NCBI RefSeq assembly: GCF_018598185.1
Contig: NZ_JAHESC010000002.1
Coordinates: 1 to 64,000 of the forward strand
Direction: 5' to 3'
From: Dawidia soli
Lineage (GTDB): Bacteria; Bacteroidota; Bacteroidia; Cytophagales; Cyclobacteriaceae
DNA: 64,000 nucleotides
Part shown: one piece after another, positions 23,120 to 31,292 of the stretch
Layout of the letters: each line of letters starts with the position of its first letter
Numbering within the stretch: position 1 is the stretch's first letter
Notes under the pieces: generated by a model
What the model saw: only the letters and a program-made list of their open reading frames with translations
The model's database searches: none
Told to the model about the DNA's origin: nothing
Made by a program: the position numbers and the translations under genes

Positions 23120-25720
23120 ATGTTTACGAACAACGATAAGGTTCACCAGGACGAAATAGAGACTGCCGCGCCGGTTTCAGAAACCCGCGATACAGCCCAT
23201 CCCGACAAAATTCTTTTGACCGGCTATTTACTGCTGGTTGTGTCGACCTTGCTTTATGTCGTGTTGCCGCGACGGGGGAGTAATTTTTTGGATCAGGACG
23301 CTTTTCCGGCGTTTATCGCACATTACCTGCTGGCGATCGCCTATGTCATCGCGCTATTGGCGAACAGGGCCTATGGTATCGTAAAAAGCTGGCGACGGGA
23401 AAACATCCATTATACCATGGTGCTGCTCAATCTCTTCCTGGTCAGCGCGTATGCCTTGAACCGGTTGGTACCGGTCTTTGAAGATTCTGTCCTCTGGCTG
23501 TGTGTACACCTGGTTGTAAGCTCCCTGGTCACCTTTAGTTACCGGTATTATACATACCTGCCCCGGGTTGTCAATAAAATACAGCATTTTCTATTGGGTG
23601 CCGCGTTGGTGCTCTACACATACCTGGCCCTGTACATCGGCCTGGTGTATCTTCCGGCCACTCTGGCGATCCTGGTGCTCGGTGTCGGCATGTTAGCATT
23701 TGTGCCGATGCTCCTGCTCATCGGTTCGGCGGCACTGATCCGCTATACGCAGGAGATCAATCGTGTATCGACAAATTGGATCATTGCCGGGGCATCGGTA
23801 ACGGTGACGTTTGCCCTCATATTTATTATAGAGTGGGACGCGCGTGTGCGTACCATCGAGCGTTTGGCCAACCAGTCGGTGATCTATGCCGACACCGAAT
23901 TGCCGGTATGGGTTAAGATCGGTCAATCCGTAAAGCTGGATTGGGTCACCGAGCGCATCTTAAAATCAGATTTTGTCTATACGATGCCCGACGATCGTGA
24001 AGATGAATTCAGTTTCGTATCCATGCGCTCCGGCTGGGCGATGCGTACACACGATCCGTTGGTATACATGGCCACGCTCTGGCGTAAGTCGTCTCTTTCT
24101 TACGATGACCGCACAAAGATCCTTCGCGCGATCACCGACAACCGTCACCGTACGGAGGAACGTCTCTGGCGCGGCGACGACCTGACGACATCCTACATCG
24201 TGACTGACATTGACATCTATCCGCAGCTGCGCCTGGCCTATACGGAGCAATACATGAATATTCGCAACAACAGCCTGTCGGGCTGGAGCGGTTTGCGTGA
24301 GGAGGCACTGTATACTTTTCAATTACCGGAAGGCTCGGTGGTGACATCCCTGTCCTTGTGGGTGAATGGCAAAGAAGAGAAGGCTATACTTACGTCCAGA
24401 CAAAAAGCGAAAGACGCGTATGAAACGATCGTGGGTAAGGAAGCGCGTGACCCCTCGGTCGTACATTGGCAGGAAGGCAACACGGTAACGGTACGCGTTT
24501 TTCCGTGCACCCGGGAGGAGGAGCGAAAGTTTAAGATCGGTATCACGTCACCCCTGCCCGAGGAACGTGGCCGTATCGTATATCGTCAGGCAACGTTTCG
24601 CGGTCCCCATGCACATGACGCAACCGAAACCCTCCGCTTCCGATTTATAGGTGGTATGATTCATGACGCGACGATGCCGCGGGGCTTCGACAAGAACGAA
24701 AAAGGAGAATACATCGCCGAGCGTCCCTACGATCCTGACTTTTCTATTTCCTGGAAGGCGGATCCCATCGAAACGAACCAGTATACTTTCAACGGCTCAA
24801 CCTATTCATTGAAACCCCATACACCAACGTTGAGGCCGTTGCACCTCAGCTATTTGTTCCTGGACCTTAACAACACGTGGGAGGCCGGGGAGGTAGACGC
24901 AGCCTATGCGGTATTGACCAAATGCAATGTCTATGCCTTTTCCGACAACGAGTTTATCCGCCTGGATGAAGATAACTGGTATGAGGTGACCAACAAATTA
25001 CGTCAGCGGAACTTCTCGCTGTTCCCGTTTCATCATGTGAAAGACACCGAACATTCGCTGGTCGTGACCAAAGGCAAGCCGCTCACGCCTTTCCTGCGCG
25101 ATATGAAAGAGAGTACGTTTGCCGGGAGTGTGAGCCGGTATTTTGCCGACAATAAAAAGGTGAACGTCTTTAATCTGACCGGTGGTGCGTCTACCTACAT
25201 TCGCTCCCTGCGCGAACTGCGGGCTTTCAACTTTGCGACAGGCGACGCTACGATCCTGGCGGGTTTGTTAGAACACAATCAATTTCCGGTCGCGGTCGAA
25301 GATGAAAGCCACCTCGTATTGCACGACGCGGGCATGGTGCTGGAGCGAAAACCCGCGGCCGAGGGTGAAGACACCGCTCCCGATCACCTGGTCCGTTTGT
25401 TTGCCTATAACAACATCATGCGCCAGGTCGGCACGCATTTCTTCAGCGAAGATTTTATAAACGAGCCGTTGGTGAACGAAGCGGCGCGGGCGTACGTGGT
25501 GTCGCCGGTGTCGAGCCTGATTGTGCTGGAGACCCAAAAAGATTATGACCGCTTTGGTATTAAAGACATCGAAAATAGTCTGGGGAATGCCACCCACAAC
25601 GACTCGGGCGCTGTGCCGGAGCCGCATGAATGGGCGCTGATCGTTGTGTTCCTCTTGTTTGTGCTGTTCAACGTAGTGCGACAGTACCGCCTGAAAACTG
25701 TAACCGCTTCGCGTGTATGA
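23120..25720 (+). CDS. XrtN-system VIT domain membrane protein
   Basis: 866 residues. N-terminal half: about six or more membrane helices (residues 30-245), then a VIT (vault inter-alpha-trypsin) domain around ALYTFQLPEGSVVTSLSLWVNGKEEKAIL (about 395-425) with the motif VRVFPCTREEERKFKIG. C-terminus: VPEPHEW (about 832-838), a hydrophobic helix, then RQYRLK, i.e. a PEP-CTERM-like exosortase recognition tail. This matches the VIT protein that is the dedicated target of exosortase N in Bacteroidota. Its stop overlaps the xrtN start (ATGA). Inferred: anchored by its own helices, processed by XrtN at the PEP site. Confidence 0.9.
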   Translation: MFTNNDKVHQDEIETAAPVSETRDTAHPDKILLTGYLLLVVSTLLYVVLPRRGSNFLDQDAFPAFIAHYLLAIAYVIALLANRAYGIVKSWRRENIHYTMVLLNLFLVSAYALNRLVPVFEDSVLWLCVHLVVSSLVTFSYRYYTYLPRVVNKIQHFLLGAALVLYTYLALYIGLVYLPATLAILVLGVGMLAFVPMLLLIGSAALIRYTQEINRVSTNWIIAGASVTVTFALIFIIEWDARVRTIERLANQSVIYADTELPVWVKIGQSVKLDWVTERILKSDFVYTMPDDREDEFSFVSMRSGWAMRTHDPLVYMATLWRKSSLSYDDRTKILRAITDNRHRTEERLWRGDDLTTSYIVTDIDIYPQLRLAYTEQYMNIRNNSLSGWSGLREEALYTFQLPEGSVVTSLSLWVNGKEEKAILTSRQKAKDAYETIVGKEARDPSVVHWQEGNTVTVRVFPCTREEERKFKIGITSPLPEERGRIVYRQATFRGPHAHDATETLRFRFIGGMIHDATMPRGFDKNEKGEYIAERPYDPDFSISWKADPIETNQYTFNGSTYSLKPHTPTLRPLHLSYLFLDLNNTWEAGEVDAAYAVLTKCNVYAFSDNEFIRLDEDNWYEVTNKLRQRNFSLFPFHHVKDTEHSLVVTKGKPLTPFLRDMKESTFAGSVSRYFADNKKVNVFNLTGGASTYIRSLRELRAFNFATGDATILAGLLEHNQFPVAVEDESHLVLHDAGMVLERKPAAEGEDTAPDHLVRLFAYNNIMRQVGTHFFSEDFINEPLVNEAARAYVVSPVSSLIVLETQKDYDRFGIKDIENSLGNATHNDSGAVPEPHEWALIVVFLLFVLFNVVRQYRLKTVTASRV

Positions 25721-27069
25721 TGACAACGGTTTTGTCTTCCAGACTCTCGGCCAGTGCCAGACACCCCTTGGTGATACTGGCCCTGGCAGGGATCGTCGGG
25801 GGGGTGGCGGCGTTTCCGCTGTCGTATGTTTCGAATACCAATGTATGGATCGGGCTCTGTTTGCTGCCCTTCGCCTGCCTCGTAACAGGTGAGACCAGAA
25901 AGAACTATGGCTATCTGCTGTTGTCGCTGACCATGGGTGGGTTGTCTTTGCTGTATGGAGTGAAGCTATTCTACTTTTTTGCGTTGGCGTTTTACGGCCT
26001 TTGGTTGGTGGAGCTTATGGTCGGGCGGTGTCATCCGTTGATGCTGGTGCTTGTCGTATGTATGTCGCCGGCGTTTTTGCAGATCTCGGGTATCCTGGGT
26101 TTTCCCATAAGGCTGCAACTGAGTGCCTGGACGGGCTGGTTGTTGCAGGCCGCGGGGGCGGATATCCAGGTGCAGGGAAATGTCATGGTGCTGGAAGGCG
26201 CCGTGTTTTCGGTAGACGACGCCTGCATGGGGTTGAACATGCTGGCGATCTCGCTGCTGATGGGTGTATTTATTCTCGCGCATCGATTTCGCATCGAGCG
26301 GAAGCAACTGTCATTTGGCTATCTCGCGCTCTTCTTTACGACGGTGTTCATATTGAACATCCTTGCAAATCTGTTTCGCATCATCGTGTTGGTGATGTTC
26401 CGTATCGGTCCCGAGCAGGCGACGCACGGTGCCATGGGGCTGGCATGCCTGGTGTCGTACGTGGTCATACCCGTATATTTCCTGGCGGGTTTTCTCGTGC
26501 GGCGTTGCGGGAAAGATGTCGAGCCGATACCGGCAGCGAGGCCTGTCAGCCCGCGAGTGGAGCTGTTGCAATACCTTTTCGCCGCCGCCATGCTGATCAC
26601 CGGCATCACCCTTGGCCGGGAGTTGAAGGCGGGCACAGCTTCTTATGCAACCGTAGCCTACCAGGGACTGCCGGCTGAAAATTTACCCACGGGCGTCACC
26701 CGCATTGCCACCGATGAATTTCTGCTCTATGTTAAACCCATTCCCGAATTTTTCGTCGCGGAGCACAGTCCCTTGTTTTGCTGGCGTGGCAGCGGCTATA
26801 CCTTCTCGTTCATACAAGAGCACGTTGTGGCGGGCAGGACGATCTACCGCGGTCAGCTGGTAAAAGGCAACGATATACTGCATACGGCCTGGTGGTATAG
26901 CAACGGAGAAGTTGTGACCATCAGCCAGCTGGATTGGCGCATGCGGATGTTTCGCGGGGAGGATAAATTCTGCCTCATCAACATTACTGCGCCGGATGAA
27001 GCGGCCTTGCTGCGCCAGGTAGAGAATACATTTCAGAACAATAGTCTTTTGGTTCATTATGAGAAATAG
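25717..27069 (+). CDS. xrtN: Exosortase N
   Basis: 450-residue multi-pass membrane protein; exosortases are Cys transpeptidase-like enzymes that cut PEP-CTERM tails and attach or release the target. The catalytic triad is visible: Cys170 in DDACMGLN, Arg221 in NLFRIIVL, His237 in ATHGAMGL. About eight helices precede and surround these, then a soluble C-terminal domain of about 150 residues (from AGTASYATVAY). Starts at the ATG overlapping the upstream stop; a second ATG follows directly. Only one candidate target is encoded here. Confidence 0.92.
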   Translation: MMTTVLSSRLSASARHPLVILALAGIVGGVAAFPLSYVSNTNVWIGLCLLPFACLVTGETRKNYGYLLLSLTMGGLSLLYGVKLFYFFALAFYGLWLVELMVGRCHPLMLVLVVCMSPAFLQISGILGFPIRLQLSAWTGWLLQAAGADIQVQGNVMVLEGAVFSVDDACMGLNMLAISLLMGVFILAHRFRIERKQLSFGYLALFFTTVFILNILANLFRIIVLVMFRIGPEQATHGAMGLACLVSYVVIPVYFLAGFLVRRCGKDVEPIPAARPVSPRVELLQYLFAAAMLITGITLGRELKAGTASYATVAYQGLPAENLPTGVTRIATDEFLLYVKPIPEFFVAEHSPLFCWRGSGYTFSFIQEHVVAGRTIYRGQLVKGNDILHTAWWYSNGEVVTISQLDWRMRMFRGEDKFCLINITAPDEAALLRQVENTFQNNSLLVHYEK

Positions 27070-27580
27070 CGATACAGTACCCATGATTTCGCAACCCCGC
27101 GTGTTGCGTCAGGTAAAAACGTTGTTGATGATATTTATGATTAGTCTGGTCATCAGCGGCCTGACAGCCTTTCCGATCGAATGGCAATTGAGCCTCGCGC
27201 ATGCATGGGTAGTAGAGCATGGCTGGAACAACGGGGTGGCTCAATGGCTGGAACGCGTGTATATGGGTGTGCATGAAACGTATAGCCGTTATCCGTTCAT
27301 CGCCTATGGCACAGACTGGCTGGCGTTTGCACACCTGGTGATTGCCGTGGCGTTTGTGGGTCCGTGGCGCGACCCCGTGCGAAATGTTTGGGTGGTGGAG
27401 TTCGGCATGATCGCGTGTGTGGCGATCTTACCCCTGGCCTTTATCGCAGGGCCGGTGCGGGGTATACCGTTGTTCTGGCAGTTGATTGATTGTTCGTTTG
27501 GCGTCTTTGGGTTATTGTTGCTGTGGGTGTGCAGGCGGAAAATTGCACGATTGGAAAAGGCGGCTGCGACAACGCGATAA
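27059..27580 (+). CDS. Small membrane protein of the XrtN locus
   Basis: 173 residues, overlapping the end of xrtN by 11 bases. Four hydrophobic helices (about 22-42, 80-103, 110-133 and 139-160) and a short basic tail. No known catalytic motif. Tight coupling to xrtN suggests an accessory factor for the exosortase, comparable in position to the associated proteins of other exosortase systems. Function is inferred only from context. Confidence 0.75.
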   Translation: MRNSDTVPMISQPRVLRQVKTLLMIFMISLVISGLTAFPIEWQLSLAHAWVVEHGWNNGVAQWLERVYMGVHETYSRYPFIAYGTDWLAFAHLVIAVAFVGPWRDPVRNVWVVEFGMIACVAILPLAFIAGPVRGIPLFWQLIDCSFGVFGLLLLWVCRRKIARLEKAAATTR

Positions 27581-27984
27581 ATCGCGACAGTGTATTCATA
27601 CACTGCTGGTTTGTAGCAACCGGCCGTATGAAGTATTTTTTTTATTACGGCCCGTAACCGTACGCAACATTTCCCGTATGTTGTAGTAGCATTTCACTCT
27701 AATGTTCACTTTTAAATAGAGGAAAGTATGTTGGTTTTGAGTTTACATATCTTCAAGTAGCCGCCACGGTAGATTTCTTACCGGAACGTTTCGGCTGTTT
27801 TTAATCCTGCCAGTTTTTTTGAAAGCCGACAAGGTTGTCGCATCGTGCTACGGTGTCGATATGCTTTTTGCGCCTTTTAGGTTTTAAAGCACAGCTGGGA
27901 TCCATTCCCCGTACAATCGGCCATTCGCATTGAATGGCGCGACGGCAGCGCTATGTATTTATAAATCACTTCCCTGTTTGTGGG
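27581..27984. other. Intergenic region with hairpins
   Basis: CAGTGTAT/ATACACTG (27588-27605) directly after the XrtN operon, then GGCCGTA (27622-27628) with TACGGCC (27646-27652) around an AT-rich loop with eight T. The rest (27660-27984) holds no ORF or repeat that I can support; it must contain the promoter of the AAA/M41 gene. Confidence 0.5.
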
Positions 27985-30087
27985 ATGAACCAAGATGAAC
28001 CAATGGAAGCAAAGAATATACATGCATCATTAATTGAACGCAAAGCAATGTTGCAGGCTATGGCAGTATCCCTGAAAGAAAAATTTCTGGGCCTGGATGC
28101 CGTGATCGACGAGGTTACATCGCTGATGATACCCTGGTATCTTTTTCCCGGGGCGCAGCAACGACCCACGGTCATTAACCTGTGGGGCCTGACAGGCTCG
28201 GGTAAGACGGCTTTGGTGCAGGCGATCATAGAATACCTGCAATACCAAAAGTTATATACGCACATGGACATGGGCGAGTTCGAATCGGACTCGGCCTCGT
28301 GGATGAAGAACATCCTGACCGACGACCTGGCATTTTTCCATGGAAAACCAGCGATCTTTTGCCTGGACGAATTTCAATTTGCGCGTACGGTGGATGCCGA
28401 CCGCCGGGAATTGGGCAAGGACAAATTGCGGGTAATTTGGGATTTGCTGGATTCGGGAAAGATCAACCATGTACCCGGACACTATACAACGGCAACCTAC
28501 AACGCAGAGAAGTGCTTGCGCAGGTTGGAAAAAGCGTCGCGTCTCGGCGTGACGATCACGCGCGGTCAGGTAGATGCAGCGGGATTGGACGAGTTTAAGG
28601 CGGTCTTCGACGGATTCTACCTCGAGTATGAAAACCGGAATAAGATTCCCGAGGCGGATTACTTCCTGTCGCGGGATTTTACCGGTGTTCTGAGAAACCT
28701 GTTTAACGACGACGACATCACGCACGAAGTCTTGCAGCAACGCATTGCGGATTCGGACCTGCACGGCCTGATGCGGTTGGTAAACGAGGCCCAGCGCTCA
28801 CAACCGCTGACCCAGACGTTGGATTTGTCTGGTGCGCTGATCTTTGTGTTGGGTAACCTGGACGAAGCGTATACCATGAGCGGAAGCCTGAATCCGGACA
28901 TCAGTGCGGACGATTTTTACGAGCAAACGACAAAGATCAACCTGGCCGATATCAAGCGTGCATTGCGCAAGCGGTTCCGGTCGGAACAGATCGCACGCCT
29001 GGGAAACAACCACGTGATCTACACCTCTTTCCATACGGCGCATTTCCGCGAGCTGATCGGACGAGAGTTAAAACGCATCGGTGCCTTCGCACAAGCGCAG
29101 TTTGGCTGGACAACTTCGTTTGACGACTCGATCGTAGACGTGGTGTATTCGGAAGGTGTATTCCCGGCACAGGGCACGCGCCCGGTATTTACAACGGTCA
29201 AGAACCTTATCGAGTCGCGGGTCGGCAGCCTGGCTGTTTCGGTACTGGAGTATCAACTGCCCGTCGCCTCCATTGACTGGCGGTTTGAAGGTGAAACCTT
29301 TACCTATACGCTCCGGGATGCAAGCGGCACCGTATTGTTGACCACTTCGGACAAGGCCACGTTGAAACTCGACAGTCTGCGCAAAAGCATCGACCCTGAA
29401 CTGCAGGCACACGTAGCGGTGCACGAGGCGGGACATGCCGTGCTGGCAGCCCTGACGTTGCGCATCATTCCCACGGTAGTGGTGTCGCGCACGGCGTCGG
29501 ATGCCGAGGGTTTTTGCCTGGTGGATTTTCCCGAAGGTCCTATGACACGGGAAACGCTGCAGAAGGATATTATAATCACCTTGGGGGGTTATGTGGCCGA
29601 ACGCCTGGTATTCGGTGATCAGTTCACTTCCTCGGGCGTGTCGATCGACATCGAGGAGGCTTCGCGTCTGGCGAACCGGGCTGTACGTCGGTATGCCATG
29701 GGCTCCGACCCGATACACCTGGCTGTGGACTCATCCGGCGAAGCCGATGCATTCTTCCTGTCGGAACGATACGCCGGTGAGTCGATCGCGATCATCAAAG
29801 CGTGTGAGGCTGAAGCGGAGCGACTGTTGAACCGGAACAAGCTGTTGCTGCTAAAGATGGCGGAGTATCTGACGACGACCTCTCGCATGGAACAGGAGAC
29901 GATCGAAGAGTACGTGGCCCGTTATGGTAAAGAAGAGTGGATTGCGCGGGACGGCTTTATCAAGCGTGACCAATACTACCGCTTTAACGAAACGCTTCAA
30001 AAGCAACTGAAGAGCCTGGAGCTCGAAGCGGCGCAAGCCGATATTGAAGGTCTGGTCTCGGAAGCAAAGGCTATCTTGTCCCGATAG
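27985..30087 (+). CDS. Soluble fusion of Clp-like AAA+ ATPase and FtsH-type M41 metallopeptidase
   Basis: 700 residues from the ATG giving MNQDEPMEAKN (an upstream start at 27934 adds 17 residues of poor quality). AAA+ module: Walker A GLTGSGKT (about 68-75), Walker B IFCLDEFQF (DE at 128-129), and the sensor-like IFVLGNLDEAY near 290-300; the style is Clp/Hsp100, not FtsH. C-terminal M41 domain: zinc motif HEAGH (480-484), third ligand Asp555 in VSIDIEEASRLA, plus GGYVAERLVFG. No membrane helix, unlike FtsH. Probably an ATP-driven cytosolic protease; substrate unknown. Followed by its own terminator. Confidence 0.85.
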   Translation: MNQDEPMEAKNIHASLIERKAMLQAMAVSLKEKFLGLDAVIDEVTSLMIPWYLFPGAQQRPTVINLWGLTGSGKTALVQAIIEYLQYQKLYTHMDMGEFESDSASWMKNILTDDLAFFHGKPAIFCLDEFQFARTVDADRRELGKDKLRVIWDLLDSGKINHVPGHYTTATYNAEKCLRRLEKASRLGVTITRGQVDAAGLDEFKAVFDGFYLEYENRNKIPEADYFLSRDFTGVLRNLFNDDDITHEVLQQRIADSDLHGLMRLVNEAQRSQPLTQTLDLSGALIFVLGNLDEAYTMSGSLNPDISADDFYEQTTKINLADIKRALRKRFRSEQIARLGNNHVIYTSFHTAHFRELIGRELKRIGAFAQAQFGWTTSFDDSIVDVVYSEGVFPAQGTRPVFTTVKNLIESRVGSLAVSVLEYQLPVASIDWRFEGETFTYTLRDASGTVLLTTSDKATLKLDSLRKSIDPELQAHVAVHEAGHAVLAALTLRIIPTVVVSRTASDAEGFCLVDFPEGPMTRETLQKDIIITLGGYVAERLVFGDQFTSSGVSIDIEEASRLANRAVRRYAMGSDPIHLAVDSSGEADAFFLSERYAGESIAIIKACEAEAERLLNRNKLLLLKMAEYLTTTSRMEQETIEEYVARYGKEEWIARDGFIKRDQYYRFNETLQKQLKSLELEAAQADIEGLVSEAKAILSR

Positions 30088-30102
30088 ATGAAAGGGATCG
30101 AC

Positions 30103-30133
30103 AAAGAGCGTGGGGTGACCTGCGCTCTTTTTT
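30103..30133 (+). terminator. Terminator after the AAA/M41 gene
   Basis: AAAGAGCG (30103-30110) pairs with CGCTCTTT (30123-30130), followed by further T. Confidence 0.85.
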
Positions 30134-30180
30134 ATTCTTTTGGTGGCGTAAAATCGTGGTAGATATTTAACTTGTGCTGA

Positions 30181-30663
30181 ATGCTGAAATTTAAAGACCA
30201 CATCAAGATCATTGGTATAAACCCATACGTATCGGTGCCCGAGCGGATCCTGAAAAAGATATTCGAGCAGGCGGGCAAGGATAAAGGTCACATTCGCATC
30301 AAGGGAACGGTGAATGGAGAAGCCTACAAACAGACCCTGGTAAAATACAGCGGTGAGTGGCGGTTGTATATCAACACCATTATGCTGAAAGATTCGCCCA
30401 AACGGATTGGTGAGAAGATCGAGCTTACGGTGGAGTTTGATAGCGAAGGCAGGGAGGTGCCGGTTTCACCGGAGTTTCTGAAAGTCTTAAAGAAGGATAA
30501 AGATGCCAGGCAGGTGTTCGATGCTTTGAGTCCCTCCCGGCAAAATGAGATCATGCGTTACCTGGCTTCTCTGAAGACGAAGGAGAGCCTGGATCGGAAC
30601 ATTGTACGGGCGATCAATTTCCTTCATGGGAAGGAACGGTTTATGGGAAGAGATCGGCCGTAG
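30181..30663 (+). CDS. DUF1905 / YdeI-OmpD-associated family protein
   Basis: 160 residues. N-terminal DUF1905 beta-barrel (about 1-85: IRIKGTVNGEAYKQTLV, VEFDSEGREVPVSPEF) and a C-terminal YdeI/OmpD-associated helical motif (about 90-150: LSPSRQNEIMRYLASLKTKE with VRAINFLHGKERFMG). Small cytosolic protein; no biochemical role is established, members have been linked to stress or bacteriocin resistance. Monocistronic by position. Confidence 0.85.
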   Translation: MLKFKDHIKIIGINPYVSVPERILKKIFEQAGKDKGHIRIKGTVNGEAYKQTLVKYSGEWRLYINTIMLKDSPKRIGEKIELTVEFDSEGREVPVSPEFLKVLKKDKDARQVFDALSPSRQNEIMRYLASLKTKESLDRNIVRAINFLHGKERFMGRDRP

Positions 30664-30821: not shown

Positions 30822-31292
30822 ATGGTGATACAATCTATGAGGACATACGATAGTACATTGCTGGCTAAATTCCTGCTATCAGTAGCGCACAGCAAGTATC
30901 AGGCTTTGAATATGACAAAGCTTCAAAAGTTGATGTATATTGTTTACGGCTACTATCTCTCGACCTTCCAGCACAAGATCATCAATGAGCAACCGCAGGC
31001 ATGGCCATTTGGTCCTGTGTTTGCCCGCGTTCATAAAAATGTTGACTACACGCAGATCCTCCGGTTGGATGACCCGGAGCTTGTCGGAATATCGCAGGAT
31101 TCGGAATTAAAACGTGTACTTGAAAAGGTCGTTGAGAATTATGCCGGTATCACTGCAAGTCAATTGTCAAATTGGTCTCATTTGGATGGAAGCCCATGGA
31201 AAAAGACGACCGAGCAAAAGAATTTTAAATGGAGTCGGGAGATTCCCGATGAATTGATAAGCGATTACTTTTCAACGTATAAGGTTGTGTAG
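30822..31292 (+). CDS. Panacea-domain (DUF4065, SocA-like) antitoxin
   Basis: 156 residues from ATG 30822; the ATG 15 bases later (MRTYDS) is also possible. Panacea domain: LAKFLLSVAHSK, MTKLQKLMYIVYGYYL, QAWPFGPVFARVH, then the C-terminal ASQLSNWSHLDGSPWKKT. The family acts as a general antitoxin platform that neutralises very different toxins encoded next to it. The next gene downstream codes for a small two-helix membrane protein, which I take as the candidate toxin. AT-rich promoter region (30664-30821) without visible ORF. Confidence 0.88.
   Translation: MVIQSMRTYDSTLLAKFLLSVAHSKYQALNMTKLQKLMYIVYGYYLSTFQHKIINEQPQAWPFGPVFARVHKNVDYTQILRLDDPELVGISQDSELKRVLEKVVENYAGITASQLSNWSHLDGSPWKKTTEQKNFKWSREIPDELISDYFSTYKVV

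Follow-up and report, generated by a model that had tools for sequence, protein, structure and literature searches.

A soluble AAA+/M41 fusion from an apparently undescribed protein family of very large phages and some bacteria

Introduction

Bacterial proteases that run on ATP are usually sorted into a small set of architectures, namely ClpXP/ClpCP, HslUV, Lon, FtsH and proteasome-Mpa. Lon carries an AAA+ module and a Ser-Lys peptidase in one chain. Also relevant here is the PrfH-RtcB pair, which has been interpreted as acting in ribosome rescue after RNase attack; the sections of that work drawn on here name as accessory genes those for a TPR protein, a Pol-beta nucleotidyltransferase, and Zn-finger or charged-helical-region proteins (PMC6514570).

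In this study, we analyse a gene in a 64,000-nucleotide stretch of Dawidia soli DNA (hereafter the window). Its product, P0001, belongs to an apparently undescribed family of soluble AAA+/M41 fusions found in very large phages and some bacteria. The combination of a Clp-D2 AAA+ module with an M41 peptidase, with the catalytic residues kept, would indeed amount to the different solution for an ATP-dependent zinc protease that the original prediction described. Searches of Pfam, NCBIfam, PADLOC and PHROGs turned up no named family covering the fusion. It had been asked beforehand whether the architecture was already described as a named protease family, and the open-access literature likewise yielded no description; because most subscription papers and all preprints lay outside the literature searched, "undescribed" is limited in its reach.

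Results

The gene and its product

The frame proposed in the original prediction (Table 1) is intact, and its longest form begins at 27934, with the 700 residues counted from 27985. Alignment with the Parachryseolinea silvisoli protein (L001; 86% identity) favours the start at Met7. Relative to L001, dN/dS is 0.073 over 694 codons (about 0.059 in the M41 domain and 0.14 in the insert described below), and this purifying signal argues that the frame is real and not a product of chance. Terminator-like sites number 7 in the interval 27560-30250, against a mean of 3.0 in shuffles. A genome-wide M41 search of Dawidia soli returned two genes, those for P0001 and a canonical FtsH; the same genome also has two Clp proteins with double AAA modules and genes similar to ClpX, HslU and Lon, which were named from their sequences and not by a named model.

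Table 1. Features of the AAA+/M41 locus; fractions give the aligned family members that carry the residue
Feature	Position (nt)	Strand	Remarks
Predicted AAA+/M41 protease gene (P0001, 700 aa)	27985..30087	+	ORF; likely true start 28003 (Met7)
Clp-D2-type AAA+ module including insert and lid, ~residues 9-430	28009..29274	+	profile matches, model
Walker A WGLTGSGKT, residues 67-75	28183..28209	+	K74 in 77/77
Walker B strand with DE, residues 124-129	28354..28371	+	D128 in 77/77; E129 in 74/77 (2 Asp, 1 Asn)
Helical insert, pre-sensor-1 / pore-loop-2 position, residues 163-283	28471..28833	+	
Sensor 1 GNLDEA, residues 290-295	28852..28869	+	N291 in 77/77
Putative Arg-finger motif RFRSEQIARLGN, residues 330-341	28972..29007	+	aligned to Clp D2 RPEFLNRID; R338 in 77/77
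Sensor 2 GVFPAQGTRP, residues 391-400	29155..29184	+	aligned to Clp D2 GARP; R399 in 76/77 (Trp in L222)
M41 peptidase domain, residues 469-641	29389..29907	+	Pfam PF01434
HEAGH zinc site, residues 480-484	29422..29436	+	H480, E481, H484 in 77/77
Putative third zinc ligand Asp555	29647..29649	+	D555 in 77/77
Intrinsic-terminator-like hairpin	30103..30130	+	12 pairs, loop 4, T tail

The AAA+ module is Clp D2-like

On P0001, Pfam gave only weak, sub-cut-off P-loop families N-terminal to the M41 domain. The NCBIfam models ClpK and ClpV align through their D2 parts to residues 277-422, far under their full-length cut-offs, and FtsH_fam aligns to residues 466-638 only (54.3 bits against a cut-off of 600). 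Among the best 60 of 65 sequences with E <0.01 in a PDB profile search, the AAA part found Hsp104, ClpE, ClpB and ClpC (2.4e-14 and weaker) and the peptidase part found YME1/FtsH (best 2e-26). The profile for this search was built from an alignment of 18 full-length family members. By hhalign, the AAA part alone matched Clp D2 (24 sequences) with E 1.2e-20 over 286 columns, whereas its match to FtsH AAA (35 sequences) had E 0.0023 and covered 65 columns in the P-loop region. Lon gave the second-best profile (8.1e-8, one sequence), followed by D1 (2e-5, two sequences), ClpX (4.7e-5, nine) and HslU (2.1e-4, one), the reference sets being unequal in size and the FtsH set the largest. The ClpB_D2-small lid (PF10431) scored above the Pfam cut-off in five of eight full-length members scanned (L117, L134, L079, L084 and L034) and below it in P0001, L101 and L230.

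On these profile comparisons, the AAA+ part of P0001 is of the HCLR clade (Clp D2-type) and not FtsH-type. The Clp/Hsp100-style ATPase of the original prediction is therefore favoured by NCBIfam, the PDB profile search and hhalign alike. Placement with FtsH had been set beforehand as the outcome that would count against that claim, and the region falls with Clp D2; on the PDB profile search and the hhalign values we reject FtsH ancestry of the AAA part.

ATPase residues are conserved but the pore-loop motif is missing

Residue conservation (Table 1) was counted on 77 aligned members, 31 of them bacterial, P0001 included, and 46 viral. R338, whose role is assigned by homology, is presumably the Arg finger. 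The original prediction had allowed for about 300 residues of inserted or linker sequence, which the profile alignment and the structure model rule out: the actual insert is about 120 residues long and the remainder is AAA+ core and lid. The insert measures 121 residues in P0001 and 20-181 over the 77 members, with 80 or more in 76 of them and the minimum of 20 in L039. After it, residues 285-430 hold sensor 1, Arg finger, lid and sensor 2, and a short strand-rich linker follows (429-457).

We searched equal stretches between Walker A and Walker B in all sets for the pore-loop-1 pattern [FYW][VILMF]G. This aromatic-hydrophobic-Gly motif occurs in none of the 77 family members, although the regular expression is a crude test, another loop could serve, and Clp D1 modules also lack the motif (absent in 2/2). 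It is present in FtsH (35/35), Clp D2 (24/24) and ClpX (9/9), and an earlier count over unequal stretches found it in HslU (1/1). The median Walker A-Walker B segment is 52 residues in the family (two rows excluded), 64 in Clp D2 and 51 in FtsH. Since the FtsH segment is as short and yet carries the motif, what is missing is the motif and not length alone.

One member departs from the conserved pattern. L222 has Asn at E129 of Walker B and Trp at R399 of sensor 2 while retaining HExxH, so ATP hydrolysis may be dispensable in this protein. It is a full-length member (L222:8926-10947), and its genome also holds an AAA-only paralogue. Such paralogues without M41 were seen twice: a 450-residue protein adjoining the full-length copy in L039 (10379-11731), and a 447-residue protein (L223:8992-10335) about 84 kb from the full-length L222 on the same contig. 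A different kind of AAA protein, a 668-residue two-AAA Clp-type protein (L132:14941-16947), lies on a viral contig that also carries an AAA/M41 gene.

The peptidase domain is M41 and the protein lacks a recognisable membrane anchor

PF01434 matches P0001 with E 2.5e-17 and 63.8 bits (cut-off 29.9) and exceeds the Pfam cut-off in all eight full-length members scanned. The M41 assignment of the original prediction, with its HEAGH motif and Asp555, agrees with this match and with the invariance of the zinc-site residues; we take Asp555 to be a zinc ligand by homology with FtsH. As had also been predicted, a hydropathy scan of P0001 found no membrane segment. Its top 19-residue window (1.75) lies on the active-site helix of M41, beginning at residue 482. 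Windows above 1.6 occur in 9 of 67 members, P0001 among them, and in FtsH in 35/35; L084, L085 and L103 have an N-terminal hydrophobic window that may reflect the choice of start.

An AlphaFold model (m6dc7ba8b74a3, from 48 sequences) has a mean pLDDT of 86.3 and a pTM of 0.76. In Foldseek it matches FtsH (4.6e-12, query TM about 0.35), and its AAA part pairs with ClpB NBD2 (4lj4; 6.3e-10, target TM 0.70). In a BFVD fold search, none of the best 50 matches listed exceeded a query-length TM of 0.41; the named top matches among those 50 are FtsH- and Clp-like, and some are unnamed.

The family is sporadic in Bacteroidota and interleaved with viral copies

The AAA/M41 fusion is a protein family and not a one-off. 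The phyletic survey proposed with the original prediction places it in 46 distinct viral proteins and in 24 of 390 genomes of the order (family profile, E <= 1e-60), so it is no one-genome oddity. With P0001 as query, 34 of 291 genomes of the order match at E <= 1e-10; in 17, the source genome included, the match at E <1e-40 covers both AAA and M41, as either one piece or two, and in the other 17 it is M41-only. In a phylum sample, five of 395 genomes (again with the source genome) fall below 1e-100, the next match being M41-only at 5e-35, and five of seven genomes sampled from the genus, the source included, are positive; the order, phylum and genus samples overlap. The distribution in Bacteroidota is sporadic.

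Scanning IMG/VR with a pattern yielded 58 loci, all retaining HExxH, on contigs of 11-479 kb; removal of 12 identical copies left the 46 proteins. We searched 34 of the 58 viral records for hallmarks: a T4 gp23-type capsid gene is present on 11 and Terminase_6N on 14 (13 over cut-off), with one or both on 15. phrog_2, which we take to be the terminase large subunit, matched 8 of the 18 hallmark-free records searched (of 19), and it also matches 11 of 14 control genomes. From the capsid and terminase matches, many of the carrier contigs are tailed-phage contigs, the rest being unproven. On one viral contig of 476 kb, many small, mutually alike proteins with an "HSIWT"-like stretch lie on both sides of the AAA/M41 gene (L092:1497-21932). 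Among 50,697 described phage records no full-length relative was found with P0001, L117 or L101 as query; these gave 0, 19 and 4 matches, respectively, all inside M41 and extending over no more than 28% of the query. Plasmid carriage was rejected, the plasmid collection giving one match, of 8% only. A prophage siting of the window copy is not supported: in P. silvisoli the locus still has the XrtN operon upstream and a DUF1905-type gene downstream, and a few genes have been gained or lost between these conserved flanks.

Bacterial and viral copies interleave on the 77-row tree, where the bacterial/viral label changes four times, at least three of the changes being forced by starred branches. 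The seven rows of the window clade (support 100) are joined by four viral rows (97). Group B, with 11 rows, comprises two neighbouring branches that do not make up a single supported clade. The 13 rows of clade C are supported at 99. Because the tree is unrooted, came from a short search and has several long branches, the direction of transfer between phages and bacteria is unsettled.

Neighbouring genes differ between clades

The original prediction had the gene standing alone. This is so for the window copy, which is flanked by the XrtN operon and a DUF1905/OmdA gene, but it does not extend to relatives, which have rtcB, WYL or hflX neighbours. The exosortase locus (23120-27580) consists of genes for XrtN and a VIT-domain target protein plus one more small gene without family match, and a SocA/Panacea antitoxin-like gene (30822-31292; PF13274, 6.7e-13) lies just 3' of the DUF1905 gene. 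The WYL, GmrSD and RNA-repair genes seen near relatives have no match among the 52 window frames.

All neighbourhood counts were made post hoc. In the window clade, rtcB or rtcB-prfH precedes the gene in four of seven members (L034, L228, L229 and L230), of which the congeners L228-L230 are not independent. These three, from the genus of the window (56-58% identity), have a Pfam RtcB gene directly upstream, separated by a 4-nt gap in L229 and overlapping as longest frames in L228 and L230. In the L228 cluster there are further genes for an RNA_ligase protein (4e-29) and an HD plus AAA_33 protein, and L229 and L230 have genes of the same size in the same places. L034, from another family, has the order rtcB, prfH (TIGR03072, above cut-off) and AAA/M41 gene, the last with a 4-nt overlap. 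No rtcB linkage was found at the window copy, L001 or L033, nor near the copies at the 13 clade C loci. The source genome has its own RtcB on another contig, 69.5% identical to that of L228 and about 6 kb from two RlaP genes; this region (L243; C69:3000-20000), with rtcB and the two RlaP nucleotidyltransferase genes, is an RNA-repair region. In two further genomes of the genus, G814 and G818 (99% and 90% complete), RtcB is present and the protease has no match at E <= 1e-40; RtcB can thus do without the protease, and the gene is not essential. Near RNA-repair genes we also noted a WYL-WCX protein whose C-terminal part is PhyH-like (L228:612-2348, and L244:1632-3413 by 67% identity).

In group B, WYL/WCX regulators lie within 5 kb at 8 of 11 loci, Pfam WYL being confirmed in the five scanned (L036, L037, L039, L151 and L153); none was found within that distance at L035, L038 (contig edge) or L220. 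GmrSD genes occur at two group-B loci, with two such genes about 2-6 kb from the L036 gene and one 3 nt downstream in L151, and a PDDEXK_4 gene adjoins L153. Small uncharacterised proteins of about 110, 145, 177-214, 176-180, 196-198 and 328-359 residues recur around the AAA/M41 or AAA-only gene (L039:5480-12339, L222:5586-14386, L223:10552-12771), with WYL regulators among them in L039 and L222; five of those from L222 were scanned and matched no Pfam family. In clade C, hflX lies beside 3 of 13 copies (L217-L219, 13-288 nt away), all of a single lineage.

Near phage copies, a PTH2-like gene (hhalign E 1.7e-5, distant) lies less than 2 kb downstream in eight related contigs (L094, L096, L105, L107, L108, L116, L121 and L131), and a Pfam-level PTH2 lies about 4 kb upstream of the AAA/M41 gene in L081 (5915-6292). 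These genes, like the Thg1 and RNA ligase genes near phage copies, come largely from one related-contig group, and for the PTH2-like gene in L094 neither Pfam nor NCBIfam gives a family, so we treat them all as a lead only.

Discussion

We moderately favour a model in which the family is a soluble, single-chain ATP-dependent zinc protease, mobile between phages and Bacteroidota, employed in conflict or stress and linked to RNA repair in the window clade. An HCLR-clade (Clp D2-type) AAA+ motor would be joined to an M41 peptidase in one soluble chain. By analogy with FtsH and YME1, the protein is very likely a hexamer in which the AAA+ ring would cap the M41 ring. ATP-driven movements would then feed polypeptide into the closed zinc-protease chamber, and the motifs make ATP-dependent proteolysis probable. 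Ordinary threading is argued against by the missing pore-loop-1 motif, and because the motor lacks this canonical element, we use "Clp-style" to mean descent and not proven threading. For the same reason, the insert at the pore-loop-2 position may help to grip or select the substrate; that it grips substrate is a conjecture we would put forward only with a "perhaps". The gene would have moved between very large phages and Bacteroidota and been put to use in conflict and stress settings.

In the window clade, the protease would remove proteins that accompany RNA damage: nascent chains, released or stalled, and damaged ribosome-bound factors are examples. This job is suggested by the frequent pairing with RtcB (RtcB-PrfH in one genome), and a protease clearing released or damaged products would fit PrfH-RtcB rescue. 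We consider a role in RNA repair or ribosome rescue plausible but hold it tentatively: the window copy, L001 and L033 lack an adjacent rtcB, the linkage is found in only four of seven members, three of them congeners, and in clade C there is no rtcB at 13 loci and hflX in one lineage only. In its most specific version, the model would make the family an additional, soluble architecture among prokaryotic AAA+ proteases. Its HCLR motor, lacking the pore-loop-1 motif of both parent lineages, would engage substrate through the helical insert; the gene would pass between huge phages and Bacteroidota; and the protease would link RNA repair or ribosome rescue (RtcB, PrfH, HflX) to the destruction of damaged or stalled translation products. 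This version is doubtful as a whole.

Several other readings deserve consideration. The family shares with FtsH both the M41 domain and the AAA-then-M41 order, yet a divergent FtsH that has lost its membrane anchor is extremely improbable, as the AAA+ profile fits Clp D2 and not FtsH AAA, the FtsH pore-loop motif is absent, and a canonical FtsH is encoded elsewhere in the genome. The protein could instead be a regulated peptidase or remodelling switch and not a processive unfoldase, with ATP binding gating M41 and with substrates that are pre-unfolded or specific partners. The loss of the pore-loop-1 motif throughout the family (77/77) points this way, as do the Walker A-B segment, which is shorter than in Clp D2 (52 against 64, although FtsH at 51 has the motif), the AAA-only paralogues without M41 (L039, L223) and the absence of E129 and R399 from L222. 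Against this, the ATP-hydrolysis residues are otherwise conserved, and we rate such a switch as somewhat unlikely.

That the protein is a general soluble quality-control protease supplementing FtsH, Clp and Lon, and has no particular connection with RNA repair or conflict, is quite unlikely. This reading would suit the solitary window copy with its terminator-like hairpin and the clade C copies, most of which, the hflX lineage excepted, have no conserved neighbour. However, FtsH, a pair of double-AAA Clp proteins and genes resembling ClpX, HslU and Lon are already present in the genome, the distribution is patchy and includes large phages, and rtcB, prfH, hflX and WYL neighbours recur. Those WYL neighbours bear on a further possibility, a defence effector: a WYL-controlled, infection-activated protease destroying host or phage proteins, of which the phage copies would be captured versions or counter-weapons. 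Regulators within 5 kb of 8 of 11 group-B loci, the GmrSD genes near L036 and L151, the PDDEXK_4 gene beside L153 and the sporadic distribution (24/390) are consistent with it. Nonetheless, WYL genes are found at none of the 13 clade C loci, L001, L033 and L034 (some on short contigs) or among the 52 window frames, and in PADLOC P0001 has only weak matches confined to P-loop stretches, which makes this reading rather unlikely. The only system components matched were DolB (1.9e-4) and mad8 (0.0053), in short stretches around the P-loop, and assignment to a known defence family was rejected on this basis.

The protease model that we prefer has two broader implications. A motor and a peptidase paired across the lines of the known architectures, with catalytic residues intact over great divergence and without the pore-loop motif of either parent lineage, offer a direct test of what an AAA+ protease needs to move a substrate. 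The presence of the family in very large phages and in rtcB/prfH operons suggests a testable link from RNA-damage repair to proteolysis.

Finally, the family can be set against the systems that it most resembles. It touches RtcB-PrfH operons in L034, where rtcB-prfH directly precedes the gene, and in the three congeners with rtcB directly before it; an AAA+ protease is not among the accessory genes named in the sections of the operon survey drawn on here (PMC6514570). LonA/LonB provide the second-best AAA profile match (8.1e-8, one Lon sequence), but the family peptidase is of the M41 zinc type. With FtsH, YME1 and AFG3L2 the family shares a C-terminal M41 domain with HExxH and a distal Asp, preceded directly by an AAA+ module in one chain. 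It differs from them in an AAA+ module that is not FtsH-type and lacks the aromatic-hydrophobic-Gly pore loop, in having no membrane helix that we could find, and in the insert of about 120 residues before sensor 1. The second module of ClpB, Hsp104 and ClpC is matched in profile over most of the AAA+ part and in the Arg-finger and sensor-2 motifs; the D2-small lid exceeds the Pfam cut-off in five of the eight members scanned, P0001 not being one of them. Unlike those proteins, the family has a single AAA+ module, lacks the GYVG pore loop and bears an insert at the pore-loop-2 position, and in place of the separate ClpP partner of Clp it carries a fused zinc peptidase.
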